NCBI RefSeq assembly: GCF_003987175.1
Contig: NZ_PIPM01000002.1
Span: 248,001-312,000 of the forward strand
DNA: 64,000 bases
Reading direction: 5' to 3'
Origin: Aliidiomarina sanyensis
GTDB lineage: Bacteria > Pseudomonadota > Gammaproteobacteria > Enterobacterales > Alteromonadaceae
Below, one piece after another: positions 10,384-55,586 of this stretch. Numbering within the stretch: position 1 is the stretch's first letter; every line of letters starts with the position of its first letter. The position numbers and the translations under genes are program-made. The notes under the pieces were generated by a model that ran no database searches, was not told where the DNA came from, and was given only the letters and a program-made list of their open reading frames with translations.

Positions 10384-10410
10384 GAACGTGTAAGCGCGTC
10401 TTACACGTTC
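10384..10410. terminator. 11-bp perfect hairpin between convergent flaG and fliE
   Basis: GAACGTGTAAG (10384-10394) and CTTACACGTTC (10400-10410) form a perfect 11-bp stem with a 5-base CGCGT loop. It overlaps the last codons of fliE and follows the flaG stop by 11 bases. There is no clear T-run on either side, so it may be a transcript-end stabiliser rather than a true intrinsic terminator. Confidence 0.6.
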
Positions 10411-46973: not shown

Positions 46974-47820
46974 AGCGGTCCTTTCACAAGATTACTGAGT
47001 CAACGAACATGTAATGTCTATTTTAGCCTATCCCGCGGGTTGGTACGAGCCATGCGCAGTGGTTAGAAGATCAATAGGTATCCTGAGGTGGGACAGCGAA
47101 CGGAGGGTTGAGCCAACATCAAGCAATAAAAAAGGCGATGAAAATCATCGCCTTGATATGAACCCGTTGCACCCCCCAGGGTGATTTCGAGAACGATTGT
47201 CGCATTGTCCGTTATTTTTTGTTTTTCTTCCCTGTGCTTGGCCGTTTCTTTTTATCGACCTAGTTCTCTAGGTCCCTTATTCACAACGGTCAAAGTCTAT
47301 TTTTTCGCGCATTGGACGCTTTCTCAGCGTGCGGGCCCGCGCGAATGCCCTCTCCCAAAATGTTTCCGCCTCAAAAAGCGCGGATGCGTTTCTTATTATT
47401 GTTTGTTGTTATTTTTGTTTTCTTTCTTGTTTTATTGAAAAGATTTTGGGGTTTTCGATGAGTGGTTCGAAAACCGCGCCAAAATCATGAGTCCACGTTG
47501 TTCTCTCGCGCGAAACAATTTGTTAACACGTAAGATTTCCCCGCAACGTTTCCTCGCTTCCCCCTCGCGAGCCTTTATTTATAAGGCTTTTGCTCGGTAA
47601 CTCTGTTTATCACGGAGCCTAGATTACGTGATTCAGCGAGATTCGCAACAACTTTATTGATCTATAAAATCATTTTTTATTACAAAAGACGATAAAACAC
47701 AACAAAACACATAACATTTGTTATTGCAAGAACACCTCCGACGGCTCTGCTACAGGCTAGTATTCTTGGGGCGTTCGTAGCAGAATGAATTTCTCTTTCA
47801 AGAACTTCGAGGTACTTTTC
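46974..47820. other. Long non-coding gap between yihI and the DUF885 gene, with structured elements
   Basis: This interval of about 850 bases has no convincing gene. On the minus strand it contains a hairpin GGTTTTCGA/TCGAAAACC (47450-47475), GACCTAG-AGAA-CTAGGTC near 47255-47275, CACCC-TGGG-GGGTG near 47170-47185, and an intrinsic terminator at 47132-47154. No minus-strand gene exists for that terminator to serve, so a non-coding RNA ending near 47130 is possible. In E. coli the csrC RNA lies next to yihI, but GGA motifs here are no denser than expected and the CsrB/C repeat AGGATG is absent. The right part (about 47640-47760) is AT-rich and probably holds the DUF885 promoter. Confidence 0.5.
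47126..47154 (-). terminator. Orphan minus-strand intrinsic terminator
   Basis: On the minus strand AAGGCGATGA-TTT-TCATCGCCTT forms a perfect 10-bp stem followed by a T-run (TTTTTTATT). On the plus strand the stem is followed by GATATG, so it works only leftwards. No coding gene lies upstream on that strand between it and 49,710. Confidence 0.8.
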
Positions 47821-49620
47821 ATGCGTAAGTTGAGTCTGTTGAGCACAGCACTTACTGCTCTCTTGGTCCTGGCTGCTTGTCAGACCACCTCTGCACCCGA
47901 ATCAGCCCGCTCGGCTCCGTCTGCAGATCAAGCGTTTACTGACCTGGCCGATCAAGCCTGGGCTTTTAATCAGCAAAATAGTGGCCTACTAGCGCCAGGA
48001 GCACGAACTGCAGGCGCGGAAGCGCGACTTGCCGATATCAGCCCCGATACACTCGCTGCAGCGACCGAGCAGCGGAAAGCATACTACGCACAAATTACCG
48101 CAATTGCTCCGAGTCAATTGAGCGAAGAGAACCAGATTAATCGCGACATGATTTTGTACGCATTGCGCAACCAAATTTCGCGCATTGAGCACAATATGCA
48201 TTTAATGCCGCTCACGAACGAAACCGGTCCACATAATGCCATTGCACGGCTCGGTGACATGTTCCGCATTCAGAACGAGCAAGACGCACAAACTTACCTA
48301 GCGGTCCTGCGCGATATCCCGACCTGGCTTGGGCAGCAAACAGCGTACATGCGTGAAGGCGTGGCACGGGGAATCACGCAACCACAGGTGGTTTTGCGCA
48401 CCTTCCCGCAAGGCGTAGAAGCCTATGTAACCCAAGATCCGAGCGAGAGTGTGTTTTACCGTCCCATGGTGCACGCACAGCGCAATTTAAGCGACGAACA
48501 AGCCAGAGCGTTTGAAATTGAATTGCAAACGGTCATTGCCACAGTCGTCAACACGGCCCTGATGGATTTTCACGATTTCTTAGTGGAAGAATATATCCCG
48601 AACGCACGCACCGATATTGCAGCACACAATCTGCCAAATGGTGAAGCCTTCTATGCCAACCGTGTGAAACACTACACCACGCTCGATTTAAGCCCAGAAG
48701 AGATTCACCAAATTGGTCTCGAGCAGGTTGCGTTGATTCGTGCCGAGATGGAAGCGGTCATTGAGCAAGTCGGCTTTGAAGGAACATTCGCAGAGTTTAT
48801 TCACTTTTTACGAACCGATCCCCAATTCTACACAGATTCCGCCGATGAATTACTGCGCGAAGCCGCATGGATAGCCAAGCAAGCCGATGCGGTATTGCCG
48901 CGTTTGTTCTACCGGATGCCACGCACACCATACGGCGTTGCTCCTGTTCCAGCCGAGATTGCGCCGAATTACACGCAAGGGCGCTATGTTCGCCCCAGCG
49001 GAGACGATCAGCCTGGGTACTACTGGGTAAACACCTATGCGGTCGAAACGCGTCCGCTCTACGAGCTTGAAGCATTAACATTGCATGAGGGTGTTCCGGG
49101 TCACCATTTCCAAATCGCTTTGGCCATGGAAATGGAAAACGTCCCTGCGTACCGCCAATTCACATACATTTCTGCCTTCGGTGAAGGCTGGGGTCTCTAT
49201 GCGGAGTATCTTGGACTTGAGACCGGATTCTACCAAGACCCCTACAGTAACTTTGGTCGCTTGACCTACGCAATGTGGCGTGCGGCGCGTCTGGTCGTAG
49301 ATACCGGCATGCATGCGCTTGGATGGAGCCGCGACGAGGCGGTTGAATTCCTCGGGAGCAACACGGCACTTTCATTGCACAACGTCAATACTGAAATTGA
49401 CCGTTACATCAGCTGGCCTGGGCAAGCCTTGTCTTACAAACTAGGTCTACTCACCATCCAGCAGTTGCGAGCTGAGGCAGAAGAAGCGCACGGTCGCCAC
49501 TTCGACGTTCGTGAATTCCACGACGAGGTGTTGCGCAACGGCAGTGTTCCTCTTGCGACCCTTGAGCAGCAAGTTCGTGCTTACATCGAGCGCAAACGTC
49601 AAGAACTTGAAGATGCGTAA
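47821..49620 (+). CDS. DUF885 family lipoprotein (putative metallopeptidase)
   Basis: The 599-residue precursor begins with a lipoprotein signal (LVLAAC, lipidated cysteine at about 20). The DUF885 signature LHEGVPGHHFQIAL (about residues 420-433) provides HExxxHH-type zinc ligands, and EGWGLYAEYLG supplies a further glutamate. DUF885 proteins are considered zinc peptidases, but activity here is inferred. The ATG at 47821 (GAGG nine bases upstream) is the start of the lipoprotein signal; an in-frame start 12 codons earlier is less likely. A terminator follows. Confidence 0.87.
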   Translation: MRKLSLLSTALTALLVLAACQTTSAPESARSAPSADQAFTDLADQAWAFNQQNSGLLAPGARTAGAEARLADISPDTLAAATEQRKAYYAQITAIAPSQLSEENQINRDMILYALRNQISRIEHNMHLMPLTNETGPHNAIARLGDMFRIQNEQDAQTYLAVLRDIPTWLGQQTAYMREGVARGITQPQVVLRTFPQGVEAYVTQDPSESVFYRPMVHAQRNLSDEQARAFEIELQTVIATVVNTALMDFHDFLVEEYIPNARTDIAAHNLPNGEAFYANRVKHYTTLDLSPEEIHQIGLEQVALIRAEMEAVIEQVGFEGTFAEFIHFLRTDPQFYTDSADELLREAAWIAKQADAVLPRLFYRMPRTPYGVAPVPAEIAPNYTQGRYVRPSGDDQPGYYWVNTYAVETRPLYELEALTLHEGVPGHHFQIALAMEMENVPAYRQFTYISAFGEGWGLYAEYLGLETGFYQDPYSNFGRLTYAMWRAARLVVDTGMHALGWSRDEAVEFLGSNTALSLHNVNTEIDRYISWPGQALSYKLGLLTIQQLRAEAEEAHGRHFDVREFHDEVLRNGSVPLATLEQQVRAYIERKRQELEDA

Positions 49621-49709: not shown

Positions 49710-50657
49710 TTACTTAACTGTTCTTTCCTGTCCAGGTTGTTGTCCCGGCTCACTCGCGACCGGCGTCACTCCCGCGGTTGCGAGTGTCTTCCGATTCGCG
49801 AGCCAGACACCCAATAGAATCAGTCCCATTCCGGTAATTTGCCAAACCCCAATCATTTCGCCATCCAAAACGCCAAGCGTCATTGCGACGACCGGGATCA
49901 AATACGTCACCGAGCTGGCAAACACAGTACTCGCAACCTGCACAAGATGATTAAATAAAATGAGGGCCAAAGCAGTACCGACCACCCCAAGAATAATCAC
50001 AGCAACCAGTGAACCCCATGCTTGCGCATCGGTAAGTTTTGGCATGATCTCCGCAGGCCCGAGGAGATACAAGCAAGCAACCGGCAAGACCATCAAAAGT
50101 GAAACACCGGTAATAGTGAGCGGACTTTGGTCCGGCAAAAATGTCCGAATTAAGTTGACGTTCGCGCCGTAACAGACGGTCGCAATCACAACAAACAAAG
50201 CATAGCCATTCAAGGCGAGCTCTCCAGACGCATTCATTAGCACAAGCAACAAGGTTCCAAAGAACCCAACGAAGAGACCTACGACCGTTGGGCCGGTCAC
50301 GACTTGGCGGAAAATCAGCGCACCAATAATCAGGGTGAACAACGGTGTCAACGCATTCAAAGCGCCCGTTACACCGCTATCAATTTGCGTTTGCGCCAAG
50401 GCAAATAGGAATGCAGGTAATAAACTACCGGTCATTCCAACCGAGAGCAGCACAGGCCATTGATGCTTGCGCACACGACGAATTCGAACGAGGGCGAATG
50501 GCGCTAAACAAGCGGCCGCAGCAGCTAAGCGCAAGGCGGCAACTTCCGTTGGAGTGAACGTTTGTAATCCGGTTTTAATGAGCCAAAACGAACTGCCCCA
50601 CACAAGTGCGAGCAAAAAGAGTTTCGCCCACGAGCTCAGTGGATGGGCTTGATTCAT
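49710..50657 (-). CDS. EamA/DMT-family transporter
   Basis: The 315 residues form ten membrane segments in two EamA repeats (about 10-140 and 155-290) with [16 protein letters not shown] near the start and [17 protein letters not shown] and [11 protein letters not shown] in the second repeat, typical of the YddG/RhtA-like exporter group. The C-terminal tail is short and polar. It overlaps engB by 4 bases (ATGA), so both are probably one transcript. The substrate is not known; similarity to the transporter at 9011-9925 is only at family level. Confidence 0.88.
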
Positions 50658-51277
50658 GAACGCTCCGGTGCGGTCGCCTCAAACCATTGAAAGAGCACAT
50701 GCTCCATATCAGCGAGACCGCTTTTGTTAAGAGAAGAGAAAGTAATGACAGATACGTCGCCACCGAAGCCTGGGATCGCTTCTTGGACCTTCATCAGGGT
50801 TGCTTTGCGTACGCCGCTCTTCAATTTGTCTGCTTTCGTCAAAACAACGAGCACCGGGAGATCACTCGCAACCGCCCAATGAATCAATTCTTGATCCAAA
50901 TCTTTCAGCGGGTGCCGAATATCCATCAATACCACAAGGCCACGTAAACATTTGCGTGCTTGCAAATATTCCGAGAGCGCCTGCTGCCACTTGAGCTTCA
51001 TTTCAAGCGGAACCTTGGCAAACCCGTATCCGGGCAAATCAATAAGACGACGTTTTTCGTCTAGCGCGAACACGTTGATCTGTTGCGTGCGACCGGGCGT
51101 TTTACTGGTACGTGCGAGGCTTTTTTGCCGAGTCAGTACGTTGAGGGCGCTGGATTTTCCGGCATTTGAACGCCCCGCGAATGCGACCTCCATTCCCTCA
51201 TCAGCAGAGAGATGACGAATGTCGGGTGCGCTCGTCACGAACCGCGCATTTTGAAAATTCAAGATATCCTGACTCAC
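50654..51277 (-). CDS. engB: Ribosome biogenesis GTP-binding protein EngB (YihA/YsxC)
   Basis: EngB is an essential GTPase in 50S subunit assembly. The 207 residues show G1 GRSNAGKSS, the switch region [13 protein letters not shown]3 [11 protein letters not shown]4 TKADKL and a G5 region FSSLNKSG. Length matches the family. It begins 188 bases from the divergent cytochrome c4 gene. Confidence 0.96.
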
Positions 51278-51465: not shown

Positions 51466-52107
51466 ATGAAAAAACTCGCGATTCTATGTGGTTTTGTGTT
51501 GTTCGCCAGTGGCGCAGCGTTCGCGTCTGAGTCTGATCGCCTGGTGGGCGATGCTGAAGCCGGACAAGAAAAAGCAGCCGTCTGTGCGGCTTGTCACGGT
51601 CCGACCGGAAACAGCCCGTCGGGTGATTTCCCGAACATCGCTGGGCAAGGCAAAAAGTACCTTGTAAAGCAATTAAAAGACTATCAACTCGGCAATGAGA
51701 CCGATGGTGAGCGCGGGCGCTACCACATGTTGATGGCAGACCAAGTCCGAAATTTGAGCGCACAAGACATTTATGACTTGGCGGCATTTTACGCGGCACA
51801 AGAACACGAAGTGGGTAGCACACCAGAGGACGTCATCGAAGAAGGCCGTCGGCTGTGGCTTGGTGGCGATGTTGATCGCGGAATTACGGCGTGTGCAGCA
51901 TGCCATGGTCCAAGCGGTCTTGGTATGAGTCTGGCGACCTTCCCATTAGTCAGTGGCCAGCATCCAGAATACACGCGCGCGCAACTCGAAGCGTTCCGCT
52001 CAGGTGAACGTGCGAACGATCCAAACGGCATGATGCGGGATATCGCAGTCAAGCTGACCGATCGCGACATCGAAGTACTTTCGCAGTTTATCCGCGGATT
52101 GTACTAA
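51466..52107 (+). CDS. Dihaem cytochrome c4
   Basis: Cytochrome c4 is a periplasmic or membrane-associated electron donor to cytochrome oxidases. The 213-residue precursor has a signal peptide (about 1-20) and two class I c-domains, each with a CAACH haem site (about 41-45 and 145-149); the methionine ligands probably fall in the YHMLMADQ and MMRDIA regions. AGAGAAGAGAG precedes the ATG. A TAAAAT at 51382-51387 may be the -10 of its promoter. The order engB-cyt c4-polA is the same as in Pseudomonas. Confidence 0.94.
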   Translation: MKKLAILCGFVLFASGAAFASESDRLVGDAEAGQEKAAVCAACHGPTGNSPSGDFPNIAGQGKKYLVKQLKDYQLGNETDGERGRYHMLMADQVRNLSAQDIYDLAAFYAAQEHEVGSTPEDVIEEGRRLWLGGDVDRGITACAACHGPSGLGMSLATFPLVSGQHPEYTRAQLEAFRSGERANDPNGMMRDIAVKLTDRDIEVLSQFIRGLY

Positions 52108-52135
52108 CGCAGCAGGCGCTAAGGCTGCAACAAAG

Positions 52136-52160
52136 AACCCGGCTTTCGCCGGGTTTTTTT
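52136..52160 (+). terminator. Terminator of cytochrome c4 gene
   Basis: AACCCGGC-TTTC-GCCGGGTTTTTTT, a perfect stem with a T-run, 28 bases after the stop. Confidence 0.94.
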
Positions 52161-52185
52161 ATGGTTGAAACAATCACGCATGCAT

Positions 52186-52210
52186 AAAAAGCCCCGGCAA
52201 AAGCCGGGGC
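52186..52210 (-). terminator. Minus-strand terminator of the polA-side transcript
   Basis: GCCCCGGC/GCCGGGGC, an 8-bp all-GC stem with a 4-base loop, followed on the minus strand by TTTTTA. It ends the candidate small RNA and any read-through from polA. Confidence 0.92.
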
Positions 52211-52276
52211 AAAAGTGATGTCCAGGGAAAACATCTTAGGAGAGAGCGCATTGCGCTCACTAAGTCAGAGTCTCCC
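52186..52276 (-). ncRNA. Candidate small RNA downstream of polA (Spot 42/ErsA position)
   Basis: On the minus strand the roughly 91-base stretch starting at GGGAGAC (52276) folds into three modules. The first is a 5' stem-loop with GAGCGC-AAT-GCGCTC (52258-52244) inside an outer GGAGA/TCTCC pairing. The second is a small hairpin GATGT/ACATC with TTTCCCTGG in the loop. The third is a strong terminator GCCCCGGC-TTTT-GCCGGGGC plus TTTTTA. TTGACG (52308-52303) stands at a suitable -35 distance, though the -10 is poor. Spot 42 (enterics, Vibrio) and ErsA (Pseudomonas) are small RNAs in this same polA-engB interval. The sequence is not Spot 42; the position and shape are the evidence. It may alternatively be only the 3' UTR of polA. 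Confidence 0.6.
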
Positions 52277-52311
52277 TTTACAAAAAAGTTCGGTTAAAAT
52301 TTCGTCAATTA

Positions 52312-55113
52312 TCAATGGGCTTCATCCCAGTTATCGCCCACCCCTGCTTCCGCGATCAGCGGCACATCAATTTTGACCGCCTGCTCCATGACCTCAACAA
52401 GCGCTTTCACATAGTGATCAACTTTTGATTCGCGGATTTCGAACACCAATTCATCGTGAACTTGCATGGTCATGAACACATCCCCTTCTTCACGATTTTC
52501 TGGATTGTCCAACCATGCCGCGACATCCAGCATGGCCTTCTTCATGATGTCAGCCGCAGAGCCTTGCATTGGTGCATTAATCGCAGCACGCTCCGCTGCT
52601 TTGCGGCGCGGTACATTACGCGCATTAATTTCCGGCAAATACAGGCGACGTCCAAAGATGGTCTCTACGTAACCTTGCGCAGAGGCCTGCTTCCGGGTCC
52701 GCTCCATATAATCTTGCACCCCCGGGAAGCGCTCAAAATACACATTCATATAATGCTGTGCGTCTTTTTGCGGAATTCCAAGTTGTCGTGACAGGCCAAA
52801 CGCCGACATGCCGTAGATCAAGCCGAAGTTTACCGCTTTTGCACTGCGTCGTTGCTCACTGGAAACCTGCTCCAGGGACACCCCAAAAACTTCTGCGGCG
52901 GTTGCCTTATGAATATCGCGTCCCCGCGCGAACGCTTCGAGTAAGCCCTTTGACTGAGACAGATGCGCCATGATTCGCAATTCGATTTGACTGTAATCAA
53001 TCGCGACCACACGATAGCCTTTCGGCGCAATAAATGCCTTCCGAACGCGTCGGCCGGCTTCATTTCGGATGGGAATATTTTGCAAATTCGGATCGGTCGA
53101 TGACAGACGCCCTGTTGCAGTCACTGCTTGATGATACGAAGTATGAATCCTTCCGGTCTCGCTGTTGATCATGCGTGGCAACTTGTCGGTGTACGTCGAT
53201 TTGAGTTTCGCTAAACCACGATGACGCAAAATAAGATCCGGCAACGGATAATCGAGCGCAAGCTCTTGTAGCACTTCTTCCGCAGTCGATGGCGCACCTT
53301 TTGGCGTTTTTTTCGTGACGGGCAGTCCAAGATCCTCGAATAAGATGGTCTGTAGCTGCTTCGTCGAGTTCAAGTTAAACGGCTGCCCGGCGATATCGTA
53401 GGCCTGCTTTTCGATCGTCGCCAATTCCTTACGAATCGTCTCACTCTGGGCATTCAATAACGCAGGATCAATCAACACGCCGCGACGCTCCATCATCGCG
53501 AGAACGGGCAATAGAGGAAGCTCTAGCTGGCGCAGTACCTCGGGTAACTTGCCCTCTTTCTGTACCTTGGGCCAGAGCACTTCATGCAACTGTAGCGTGA
53601 CGTCGGCATCCTCAGCTGCGTAGCGCGCTGCTTCGGCGATAGGGATCTCATCAAAGCGTTTTTGCTTCGCGCCTTTGCCAGCAATCTCCTCAAACGAAAT
53701 CGGCTTATGGCCAAGGTACTGTAATGAAAGGGTGTCCATGTCGTGGCGGGATCCTGTGCTATTGAGCACATAGGAATTCAACATGGTGTCATTCAAAATT
53801 CCCCGTAAATGGATGCCTTGCGTTCTTAAAACGTGGAGATCGTACTTGAGATTTTGCCCAATCTTTTTTGGTTCCGTATCCTCAAGCAACGGCTTAAGTT
53901 GCTCAAGAACCCAAGCTCGGTCAAGCTGTTTAGGGCCTTCCATATCCTGATGGATCAATGGAATATAGGCTGCTTCCCCAGGCGCAACGGCAAAGGAAAT
54001 CCCGACGAGGTCCGCCTGCATGTAATCGAGGCTTGTGGTTTCAGTATCGACCGCATAATAAGGCGCCGAACGAAGCTTTTCGAGCCACTCATGGAGTGTC
54101 GCTTCGTCGGTAATGGTCACATAATCATCATGGCGGATGCCGCCGAGATCGAGGGCGCCTGAAGAACCGGAGTCGTCTGCAGTTCCACCCGCAGTATCCG
54201 TGTCACCGCCATGCTCCGGCGATTTTTCGCCCTTCTCAAGCAGTTCACTGAGCCACCGACGGAATTCACAGGCCTTGTACAATTCCGCGAGACGTTGATC
54301 ATCGGGCTCGCTTAAGGTCAATTGCTCTGGTTTAAACTCCAGCTCAACATCAAGCTTGATGGTCGCTAACTCTTTCGATAGCAACAGAATGTCTCGATGT
54401 TCGCGAATCTTATCGGGCATTGATTTGGCTCCGCGAAAACTCAGTTCGGCAAGCTTATCAGGCTCCTCTAACATCGCATCAATACTCCCCATGCCCTGAA
54501 GCATCGCGAGCGCCGTTTTCTCACCGACACCGGGTAAGCCGGGAATATTGTCTGAGCTATCGCCCATCAATGCGAGAAAATCAATCATTTGATCGGGGCG
54601 AACCCCATATTTCTCAATCACCGCATCATGATCCAATACGGTATTCGTCATGGTGTTGATTAGGATGACATGGTCGTTCACCAGCTGCGCCATATCCTTA
54701 TCACCAGTACTAATCAGCGTCGTCCGCCCCTCTTCTGAGGCCTGCATCGCTAAAGTACCAATCACATCATCGGCTTCAACGCCTTCAATTGATATCAATG
54801 GCAAACCCAATGCTCGGATTATTTGATGGAGAGGCTCGATTTGACTCCGTAAATCGTCTGGCATCGGCGGTCGGTTGGCTTTGTACTCAGCATACATGTC
54901 GTTGCGAAAGGTCTCGCCTTTGGCATCAAAAATAACCGCCATGTGGGTCGGATTGTATTGCTTTAATAAACTACGGAGCATATTAACCACCCCGTAGATT
55001 GCACCGGTCGGCTCCCCTGCCGAGTTTGTTAAATGAGGGGGGGCATAATAGGCACGAAAGAGATAAGAAGAACCATCTACCAAAATAAACGGTTGTGCTG
55101 GAATGCTTGCCAT
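52312..55113 (-). CDS. polA: DNA polymerase I
   Basis: PolA fills gaps and removes RNA primers. The 933 residues (E. coli 928) hold a 5'-3' exonuclease domain (1-290; [24 protein letters not shown]), an intact 3'-5' proofreading domain ([27 protein letters not shown]) and the polymerase domain ([11 protein letters not shown] motif [11 protein letters not shown] motif C). An acidic/glycine-rich linker lies at about 310-330. The ATG at 55113 matches the usual start; the longer open reading adds 19 unlikely residues. A candidate small RNA lies immediately downstream. Confidence 0.97.
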
Positions 55114-55586
55114 AACCGAGACCTTGTTCCAAAAGCGTTGCGAATAACGGTAAGGATGCCACATACGCACGAATCAAGCGACAGGCGGCTCAAAAATTGC
55201 TGCGGGCGTTGCTCAAAAAGCCATCAAACGTGGCGAATAACCTGTGGATAACTCTGTGAAGAAATAGCGGAATCTGCCGTGAATCTGACAAATCAGATGG
55301 CAGCATAGAATGCGTAAGTGTTTGATTTAACGGGACGAAACAGCGGAACCCGGATCACTTTCTTTGTTATTTTTGTACTACCCGAGAATGTGGAAATTAA
55401 TTTCTGGCGGGTTGACTTCTGCGCCTGACTGTTGCCGTATAGTGAAAACTTTTTTGAAGTTTTGTACGTTATTTCCACATCAGGAAGACAGATTAGCACA
55501 ACCAGAAACGAGCGCTAGATCAAATTGTGATCTTTTTTAACATTTTTTGATCTGAAGAATGCGCGATTTAGACGAGGAGCGACATA
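55114..55586. other. Gap between polA and elbB
   Basis: This 473-base interval has no convincing gene. It holds one perfect DnaA-box match, TGTGGATAA (55243-55251), and two looser TGTGGAAAT-type sites near 55388 and 55470. Its right half is AT-rich with the palindrome at 55517-55533. It should contain the divergent promoters of polA and elbB. Confidence 0.45.
55517..55533. promoter_or_regulatory. Palindromic operator-like site upstream of elbB
   Basis: AGATCA-AATTG-TGATCT is a perfect 6-bp dyad with a 5-base centre. A third half-site TTGATCT lies 15 bases on. It is about 55 bases before the elbB start, where a regulator could act on the promoter. The regulator was not identified; the spacing does not fit CRP well. 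Confidence 0.45.

Follow-up and report, generated by a model that had tools for sequence, protein, structure and literature searches.

The stretch of DNA analysed here, referred to as the window, comprises 64,000 nucleotides of Aliidiomarina sanyensis, and the comparative evidence leaves little doubt that its interval between polA and engB contains a genuine small RNA (sRNA) gene. This sRNA is positioned as Spot 42 is, and it is probably a sigma-E-dependent, trans-acting base-pairing repressor of a TonB-dependent receptor, expressed from its own promoter behind polA. Its predicted promoter layout, hairpins, terminator and seed, together with a complementary site in the putative target, are conserved among the relatives carrying the gene. 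The features of the locus are listed below in window coordinates, with fractions out of eight referring to the carrier sequences of the genus.

52312-55170, minus strand: polA (DNA polymerase I), upstream of the sRNA; open reading frame, NCBIfam NF004397 at 1213.9 bits, stop codon at 52314-52312
52303-52308, minus strand: TTGACG, earlier proposed as a -35 element, probably not a promoter
52286-52291, minus strand: sigma-E-type -35 element GAACTT, with the best matrix score; AACTT in 8/8, GAACTT in 4/8
52265-52269, minus strand: sigma-E-type -10 element TCTGA, 16 nt past GAACTT; TCTGA in 3/8, TCATA in 5/8
52186-52258, minus strand: predicted sRNA of about 73 nt, its 5' end placed by the promoter-to-start distance of micA
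52244-52258, minus strand: stem-loop 1, GAGCGC-AAT-GCGCTC
52239-52246, minus strand: pyrimidine box CUCUCUCC, a possible accessory pairing region; CTCTCC in 8/8
52217-52235, minus strand: stem-loop 2, GATGT-TTTCCCTGG-ACATC; one variable position in 19 across eight sequences
52221-52231, minus strand: seed UUUUCCCUGGA, able to pair with UCCAGGGAGAA in the receptor mRNA
52211-52218, minus strand: UCACUUUU, a second stretch complementary to the leader of the genome's own receptor (AAAAGUGA)
52191-52210, minus strand: terminator stem, all G-C
52186-52190, minus strand: U tract of the terminator
52136-52155, plus strand: terminator stem of the convergent cytochrome gene, distinct from the sRNA
51466-52107, plus strand: cytochrome c-type gene, convergent with the sRNA; open reading frame, c4-like by our own label, with NCBIfam matches to PdsA (59.6 bits) and ccoP (22 bits) both below cut-off
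50654-51277, minus strand: engB (yihA), on the other side of the interval; TIGR03598 at 236 bits

The three minus-strand hairpins described behind the polA stop codon in the original prediction are present in the sequence at the positions it assigned to them, as are the 8-bp all-GC stem GCCCCGGC-TTTT-GCCGGGGC (52210-52191) followed by TTTTTA and the string TTTCCCTGG (52230-52222) inside or adjoining the middle loop. The TTGACG that had been taken as the -35 element also exists (52308-52303), but its role as a promoter was rejected, since no sigma-70 promoter-like site was detected on either strand of 51500-52700 (shuffle mean 0.7) and the motif is kept at that spacing in one of the seven carrier relatives, that is, in two of the eight genus sequences including the window.

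RpoE was searched for in 58 related genomes and 30 rpoE loci were examined for upstream sites, of which 29 displayed GAACT(T/A)-N16-TC upstream of rpoE, while the remaining one is truncated at a contig end. A sigma-E matrix was built from 27 distinct rpoE-upstream sites, with no polA sequence in the training set. It assigned 17.5 bits to the site at 52294, the top score among about 128,000 window positions on both strands, the next best being 12.9 bits; this second site lies at 10386 on the minus strand. The eight carriers scored 17.5, 18.0, 20.2, 4.9, 9.7, 8.6, 9.7 and 11.2 bits, the promoter being weak in one of them (L007, 4.9 bits), and the rpoE training sites themselves scored from 8.4 bits upwards with a median of 27.5. 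The site in the window reads GAACTT-N16-TCTGA (52291-52265, minus strand), and the layout AACTT-N16-TC followed after 6 nt by GAGC was found in all eight genus carrier sequences. On this basis the sRNA promoter is very likely an RpoE (sigma-E) promoter. For comparison, E. coli micA carries GAACTC-N16-TCTGA, and its start is annotated 7 nt past TCTGA; this distance places the predicted start of the window RNA at about 52258 (+/- 2) and gives it a length of about 73 nt. These values are to be preferred to the 5' end near 52276 and the length of about 90 nt given originally, as the sigma-E-type promoter sits 17 nt further on, and the GGGAGA (52276-52271) that had been paired in the first hairpin would fall within its spacer.

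Conservation in the genus was assessed using eight carriers, window included, out of 17 genus genomes. The seed hairpin was found at polA with at most one mismatch in these eight and was absent at that stringency from the other nine; three-mismatch sites occur in four of the nine non-carriers, and such sites occur in carriers too. Mean pairwise identity (28 pairs) was 0.82 for the RNA, 0.73 for the promoter and 0.49 for the 75 nt past the terminator, while the 5' flank, comparable in three pairs only, gave 0.56. Stem pairs were counted on hand-set arms, as MAFFT misregistered the terminator. Of the five pairs counted in stem-loop 1, four are invariant and the fifth is G-C, A-U or G-U, with none broken in the eight sequences; in the terminator, three of the eight pairs show G-C/A-U changes and the last pair is broken in two of the eight sequences, this being the only one of the 20 stem pairs counted that is ever broken. 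Two-sided pair changes between G-C and A-U were observed in both stem-loop 1 and the terminator, and the stems are kept in all seven carrier relatives, which was the test of conservation that had been proposed for them. Folding of 52276-52186 and 52265-52187 gave z scores of -5.3 and -6.7, respectively, with none of 200 shuffles equally stable in either case. A role as a CsrA sponge was set aside, as one GGA was seen in the RNA by eye.

It is very unlikely that these hairpins represent the polA terminator or 3' UTR and no separate RNA. They do constitute the first terminator past the polA stop codon on the same strand; however, a terminator would need neither a sigma-E-type layout 6 nt before the first hairpin, seen in 8/8 sequences, nor a nearly invariant 19-nt loop hairpin, and the distance from the polA stop to the -35 element varies from 20 to 111 nt among carriers with the unit intact throughout. 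The earlier proposal that the polA-engB locus holds a discrete RNA gene is upheld by the comparative evidence.

Family membership was assessed using Rfam covariance models, including that of MicA, which we take to be RF00078. The window RNA gave no match at gathering, in agreement with the earlier remark that its sequence is unlike Spot 42 and ErsA: the Spot 42 model (RF00021) scored 17.9 bits (E 0.62) against a gathering threshold of 80, and neither RF01719 (Pseudomon-1/ErsA) nor the MicA model matched at E<=10. The same library detected, at gathering, RF01719 behind polA in two Pseudomonas loci (L066, L090) and Spot 42 in the Vibrio locus L037 and in L028, and detected neither ErsA nor Spot 42 at gathering in five Idiomarina-type loci (L004, L011, L022, L034, L052). 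Sub-threshold matches (PrrF at 28.5 of 90 bits, anti-hemB, suhB and mir families) were ascribed to GC terminators and CUCCC strings. The polA RNA of Pseudidiomarina marina (L034:3990-4071) barely passed the mmgR/suhB threshold (41.4 bits against 41); its alignment shares mainly CUCCCU and the terminator, and the match was read as convergence.

The distribution of the gene beyond the genus was surveyed in 52 genomes of the same family, representing 51 genera, using as the criterion GAACT(T/A)-N15-17-TC followed by a terminator, on the polA strand and at most 650 nt from polA. This combination was found behind polA in 22 of the 52 genomes and on the reverse strand in none, with single-base shuffles giving a mean of 0.1 and a maximum of 1 over 20 rounds. 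A Spot 42 motif accompanies it in the interval in 16 of the 22 and is missing in six; by the same criteria, six of the 52 genomes have Spot 42 alone and 24 have neither. Several Spot 42-only loci nevertheless score well with the sigma-E matrix (11.2 bits for L115, 15.0 for L140, 15.6 for L152, and 16.7 for L056, a duplicate of the Spot 42-only case L136), so that 22/52 is probably an undercount. The matrix was also applied to 168 polA-downstream stretches, made up of 90 (from 113 genomes with a polA match) and 80 named contig loci minus 2 duplicates; scores of at least 12 bits were reached by 25 on the polA strand, by none on the reverse strand and by six of 840 dinucleotide shuffles. Among 29 segments from outside the Idiomarina-type set, the pyrimidine core TTTTCTCTC occurs between promoter and terminator in 7 (shuffle maximum 2) and TCCC in 13 (shuffle maximum 8), while CTCTCCCTGGATTG is found in Pseudidiomarina marina (L034), P. 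aestuarii (L052) and a third genome (L022), and TTCTCCCTGGATTG in a fourth (L024). Four Pseudoalteromonas loci (L080, L081, L091, L093) display a different conserved terminator-ended unit (TGTAGGACATCCTGTTGATGATGTATCTCTC) in the first 330 nt past polA. The original description of the RNA as lineage-specific is not supported in the narrow sense, given a similar gene behind polA in 22 of 52 other family genomes, and neither is its implied status as the Spot 42 counterpart, given that 16 of those 22 genomes have Spot 42 as well. Among the open-licence papers listed in literature searches, none was seen to describe a sigma-E sRNA behind polA in Alteromonadales, and the main text of a study of Alteromonas macleodii describing 127 chromosomal and 11 plasmid sRNAs is without polA (PMC5864184).

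Spot 42 is also a short, terminator-ended RNA of the polA-engB interval, described between polA and yihA (PMC3295665), and the two share a GC terminator on the 3' side and, by eye, the short string TAAGATGTT. That the window RNA is a spf gene changed past recognition is nonetheless highly improbable, as the model score is 17.9 against 80, the sequences differ, and 16 of the 52 family genomes hold both RNAs as separate units, in either order. This co-occurrence further implies that ErsA-like RNAs need not be altered Spot 42s. By its predicted sigma-E-type promoter, the window RNA is of a shared kind with ErsA rather than with Spot 42.

Like ErsA/Pseudomon-1 of Pseudomonas, the RNA lies directly behind polA with a predicted promoter of the sigma-E (sigma-22) type. 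ErsA is described as a sigma-22-dependent RNA of 132 nt that acts on algC and negatively on the porin mRNA oprD (PMC5819304, PMC7565897). A second RNA of the interval, VSsrna24 of Vibrionaceae, is described as about 60 nt long and located 262 nt downstream of spf (PMC3295665), and is similarly short. It is possible, although we consider it the less probable alternative, that ErsA, VSsrna24 and the window RNA are true orthologues descended from one ancestral polA-interval sRNA gene. The shared locus (RF01719 behind polA in L066 and L090) and the described promoter type of ErsA (PMC7565897) would fit such an origin, as would the TTTCTCTCCC seen before a terminator downstream of Spot 42 in L037 and L028, which we take to be VSsrna24 from its described position (PMC3295665); these Vibrio loci carry the string UCUCCC. 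However, the RF01719 model did not pick up the window RNA at E<=10, ErsA is 132 nt long (PMC5819304) as opposed to about 73 nt and has another seed, and VSsrna24 lies behind Spot 42 (PMC3295665) and is reportedly glucose-repressed, with no GAACTT-N16-TC, or other sigma-E-type site, seen by eye before TTTCTCTCCC in L037. Since the covariance-model matches fail, the RNA was placed in neither the MicA nor the ErsA family.

The earlier suggestion that the middle loop exposes a possible seed gains support from a receptor mRNA in which a complementary site is conserved. The target search was carried out in the eight carrier genomes with the pattern TCCAGGGA-N0-20-ATG and gave 55 sites, a few of them double-counted places or complements of the sRNA itself, against 11 for the backward pattern; AGGGA being similar to a ribosome-binding site, some of this excess would arise in any case. 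One kind of site was common to all eight carriers; it reads AATCAC-N5-GTGATCCAGGGAGA-N6-ATG, with minor variants, and lies at the start of a TonB-dependent receptor gene. The start of this receptor, 898-943 amino acids long, is preceded by TCCAGGGAGA-N6 in all eight, and in each of them the ribosome-binding site of its mRNA (UCCAGGGAGA) shows complementarity to the seed. The receptor of the window's own genome (P0001), one of 16 PF00593 matches there, gave 121.6 bits with PF00593 and 83.4 bits with the Plug domain, the best 25 of its 27 NCBIfam matches all being below cut-off. In the own pair, UUUUCCCUGGA pairs with UCCAGGGAGAA, and a second pairing, between UCACUUUU and AAAAGUGA, lies immediately upstream in the leader; this second pairing was also seen in the G013 and G016 pairs and is unclear in the other carriers. 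A second receptor shares the TCCAGGGAGA leader, with TCCAGGGAGAGCTC before its start, in four of the eight carriers. The 64-kb window itself contains no exact copy of TCCAGGGAGA. With one mismatch there are six occurrences, including the complement of the sRNA, where 2.66 would be expected, and 4 of 100 shuffles gave at least as many.

Beyond the genus, C(C/U)AGGGAG precedes, by our own count, 13 of the 27 receptor starts inspected out of 30 receptor loci, in 12 of 15 genomes. In a general sample of PF00593 receptors from four genus genomes, the site was present at three of 30 starts, all orthologues of the predicted target (all 30 starts were counted, including an implausible one, L279, 11 amino acids before the barrel), which indicates that the target is one receptor subfamily. 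Four other TonB-receptor starts (L290, L283, L280, L293) share a different ribosome-binding region, GGGGGA(A)GCA, which could be the site of another sRNA. The leader of the receptor at L329:276-3086 (minus strand) contains a hairpin, its sequence changing across genera with the pairing kept, followed by UCCAGGGAGA; hairpin and UCCAGGGAGA together are a candidate cis-regulatory element in their own right.

The specificity of the pairing was assessed in 18 genomes, namely seven of the eight carriers (G016 was omitted, since in the part compared its sRNA and leader strings are identical to those of G013), joined by 11 of the 15 genomes from other genera (omitting G043, G020 and G046, for which no receptor start displayed bore C(C/U)AGGGAG, and G019, which has the gshA RNA described below as its only sequence of this type). 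In 12 of the 18 genomes, no more than 6 of 300 shuffled sRNAs attained the longest ungapped sRNA:leader run (G-U pairs allowed); in the other six, 40 to 206 of 300 did so. Runs over the ribosome-binding site extend to 15 bases in G041 and G058, 13 in G037 and 11 in the own genome. Cognate pairs exceeded permuted pairs, with 232 of 5000 permutations reaching the observed mean over the 18 genomes and 159 of 5000 over the ten genera outside the genus; inside the genus, an sRNA mostly pairs with its cognate leader no better than with the leaders of other genomes. As the leaders were pre-picked for the motif, the shuffle test is favoured by this choice and the permutation test is not, and the permutation results are modest and the genomes related. 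Whole-duplex energy was unspecific, 503 of 3198 random 65-nt window stretches matching the value for the own receptor leader (-26.2), while 1-7 of 200 shuffled sRNAs equalled the energy of the real sRNA on the first receptor.

The complementarity suggests that the receptor mRNA is a direct target of the sRNA, and on balance we favour this assignment. It is rather unlikely, though worth weighing, that a sigma-E sRNA is present whose real targets lie elsewhere, UCCAGGGAGA being conserved as a ribosome-binding site or for another sRNA. The persistence of the receptor leader in genomes without the polA RNA and across genera whose sRNA cores differ is consistent with such an explanation, as is the unspecific duplex energy, but the receptor is favoured by pairing that covers the ribosome-binding site with 11-15 consecutive bases in several genera, that beats shuffles in 12/18 genomes and that shows an advantage of cognate over permuted pairs. 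The window RNA displays two features of the sigma-E-controlled class of sRNAs that repress outer-membrane proteins, namely a predicted sigma-E-type promoter and complementarity to the translation start of an outer-membrane protein mRNA, whole-duplex energy alone being unspecific; in this reading it would be of that kind and would work like MicA and ErsA.

Loss of the target site in the absence of the polA RNA was looked for in the nine non-carrier genomes and not found: the best N-terminal receptor match keeps TCCAGGGA in 9/9 (the G003 copy has an internal stop), indicating that the leader does not depend on the polA RNA alone. A search for a sigma-E-type promoter followed by CCCTGGA in the 17 genus genomes returned 15 places (three for the backward control), comprising six polA RNAs, seven copies of a second RNA at gshA and two others (L383, L393), which were judged to be chance. 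The second RNA lies between gshA, with which it is convergent, and a divergent gene for a transglycosylase-domain lipoprotein (PF19489 in the G012 copy), in six of the nine non-carriers and one carrier. The ends of gshA were inspected at 24 of 30 loci, 17 from the genus and seven from other genera or families, and a similar unit was seen by eye in 17/17 genus genomes (L394-L410; CCCTGG in 15, CCCTTGG in two) and at two of the seven other loci (G019, G021). The copy in the window's own genome is located as follows:

L405, about 1400-1510: gshA sibling RNA, convergent with gshA

E. coli micA occupies the same place in the same orientation relative to gshA, so by position the predicted gshA RNA is the counterpart of MicA, a sigma-E sRNA repressing ompA that is described as located between luxS and gshA and conserved in enterobacteria (PMC4618604). 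The window RNA itself resembles MicA in GAACT.-N16-TCTGA, a UCCCUG core and a predicted start 7 nt on and length of 73 nt, and like MicA (PMC4618604) it would act on the mRNA of an outer-membrane protein; in contrast, it lies behind polA and is not convergent with the 3' end of gshA, the place taken by its sibling. The Rfam MicA model matches neither RNA; for the gshA RNA, seven loci were searched and no hit appeared at E<=5. The gshA RNA may explain the persistence of the receptor site in the nine non-carriers. Its promoter reaches at least 8 bits in nine of 17 genomes (4.8 for the own copy) and the pairing of its seed UCCCCUGGU with the receptor leader is weaker, being equalled by 442 of 3198 random stretches; given this weaker fit on both counts, redundancy of the two RNAs is a hypothesis.

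The arrangement behind polA also differs in non-carriers. In all nine, a relative of the transporter gene at window 49710-50657, EamA-like in our reading, lies on the strand opposite to polA and has its 3' end directly after it, with engB beyond; the cytochrome gene is at the far end, with the peptidase-like gene of window 47785-49620 behind it in eight of the nine. In our interpretation, the cytochrome-engB-transporter block is inverted in these genomes, and one end of the inversion would lie at the place of the sRNA (L012-L020, L227, L231-L238).

In the mechanism proposed for the window RNA, misfolded outer-membrane proteins would lead to the release of RpoE, and transcription of the RNA of about 73 nt would follow from its predicted promoter. 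Its UUUUCCCUGGA loop, possibly with the aid of Hfq, would then pair in vivo with UCCAGGGAGA, the ribosome-binding site on the receptor mRNA, and block translation, the regulation being negative, so that less of a large beta-barrel protein would flow to the outer membrane; the gshA-convergent sibling, with its related seed, may share this job. A comparable arrangement is described for ChvR of Caulobacter, which is controlled by envelope signals and base-pairs with and represses the mRNA of the TonB-dependent receptor ChvT (PMC6237742); the likeness is one of description, and ChvR, in contrast, is under ChvI-ChvG and is described as Hfq-independent (PMC6237742). More tentatively, an ancient second sRNA gene of the gammaproteobacterial polA-engB interval, controlled by sigma-E and separate from Spot 42, may have given rise to ErsA, VSsrna24 and the window RNA as its branches, and in Alteromonadaceae the polA RNA and the MicA-like gshA sibling might jointly form a redundant pair that, through related CCCUGG seeds, silences a TonB-receptor subfamily by way of a leader motif (hairpin and UCCAGGGAGA) preserved across genera.

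The analysis tells apart two genes at one address, Spot 42 and the predicted sigma-E-type sRNA. With a testable seed and target, it would carry the concept of sRNA-mediated silencing of outer-membrane proteins under envelope stress into a group that has many TonB-dependent receptors, and the gshA sibling suggests that MicA-type RNAs may exist beyond enterobacteria.
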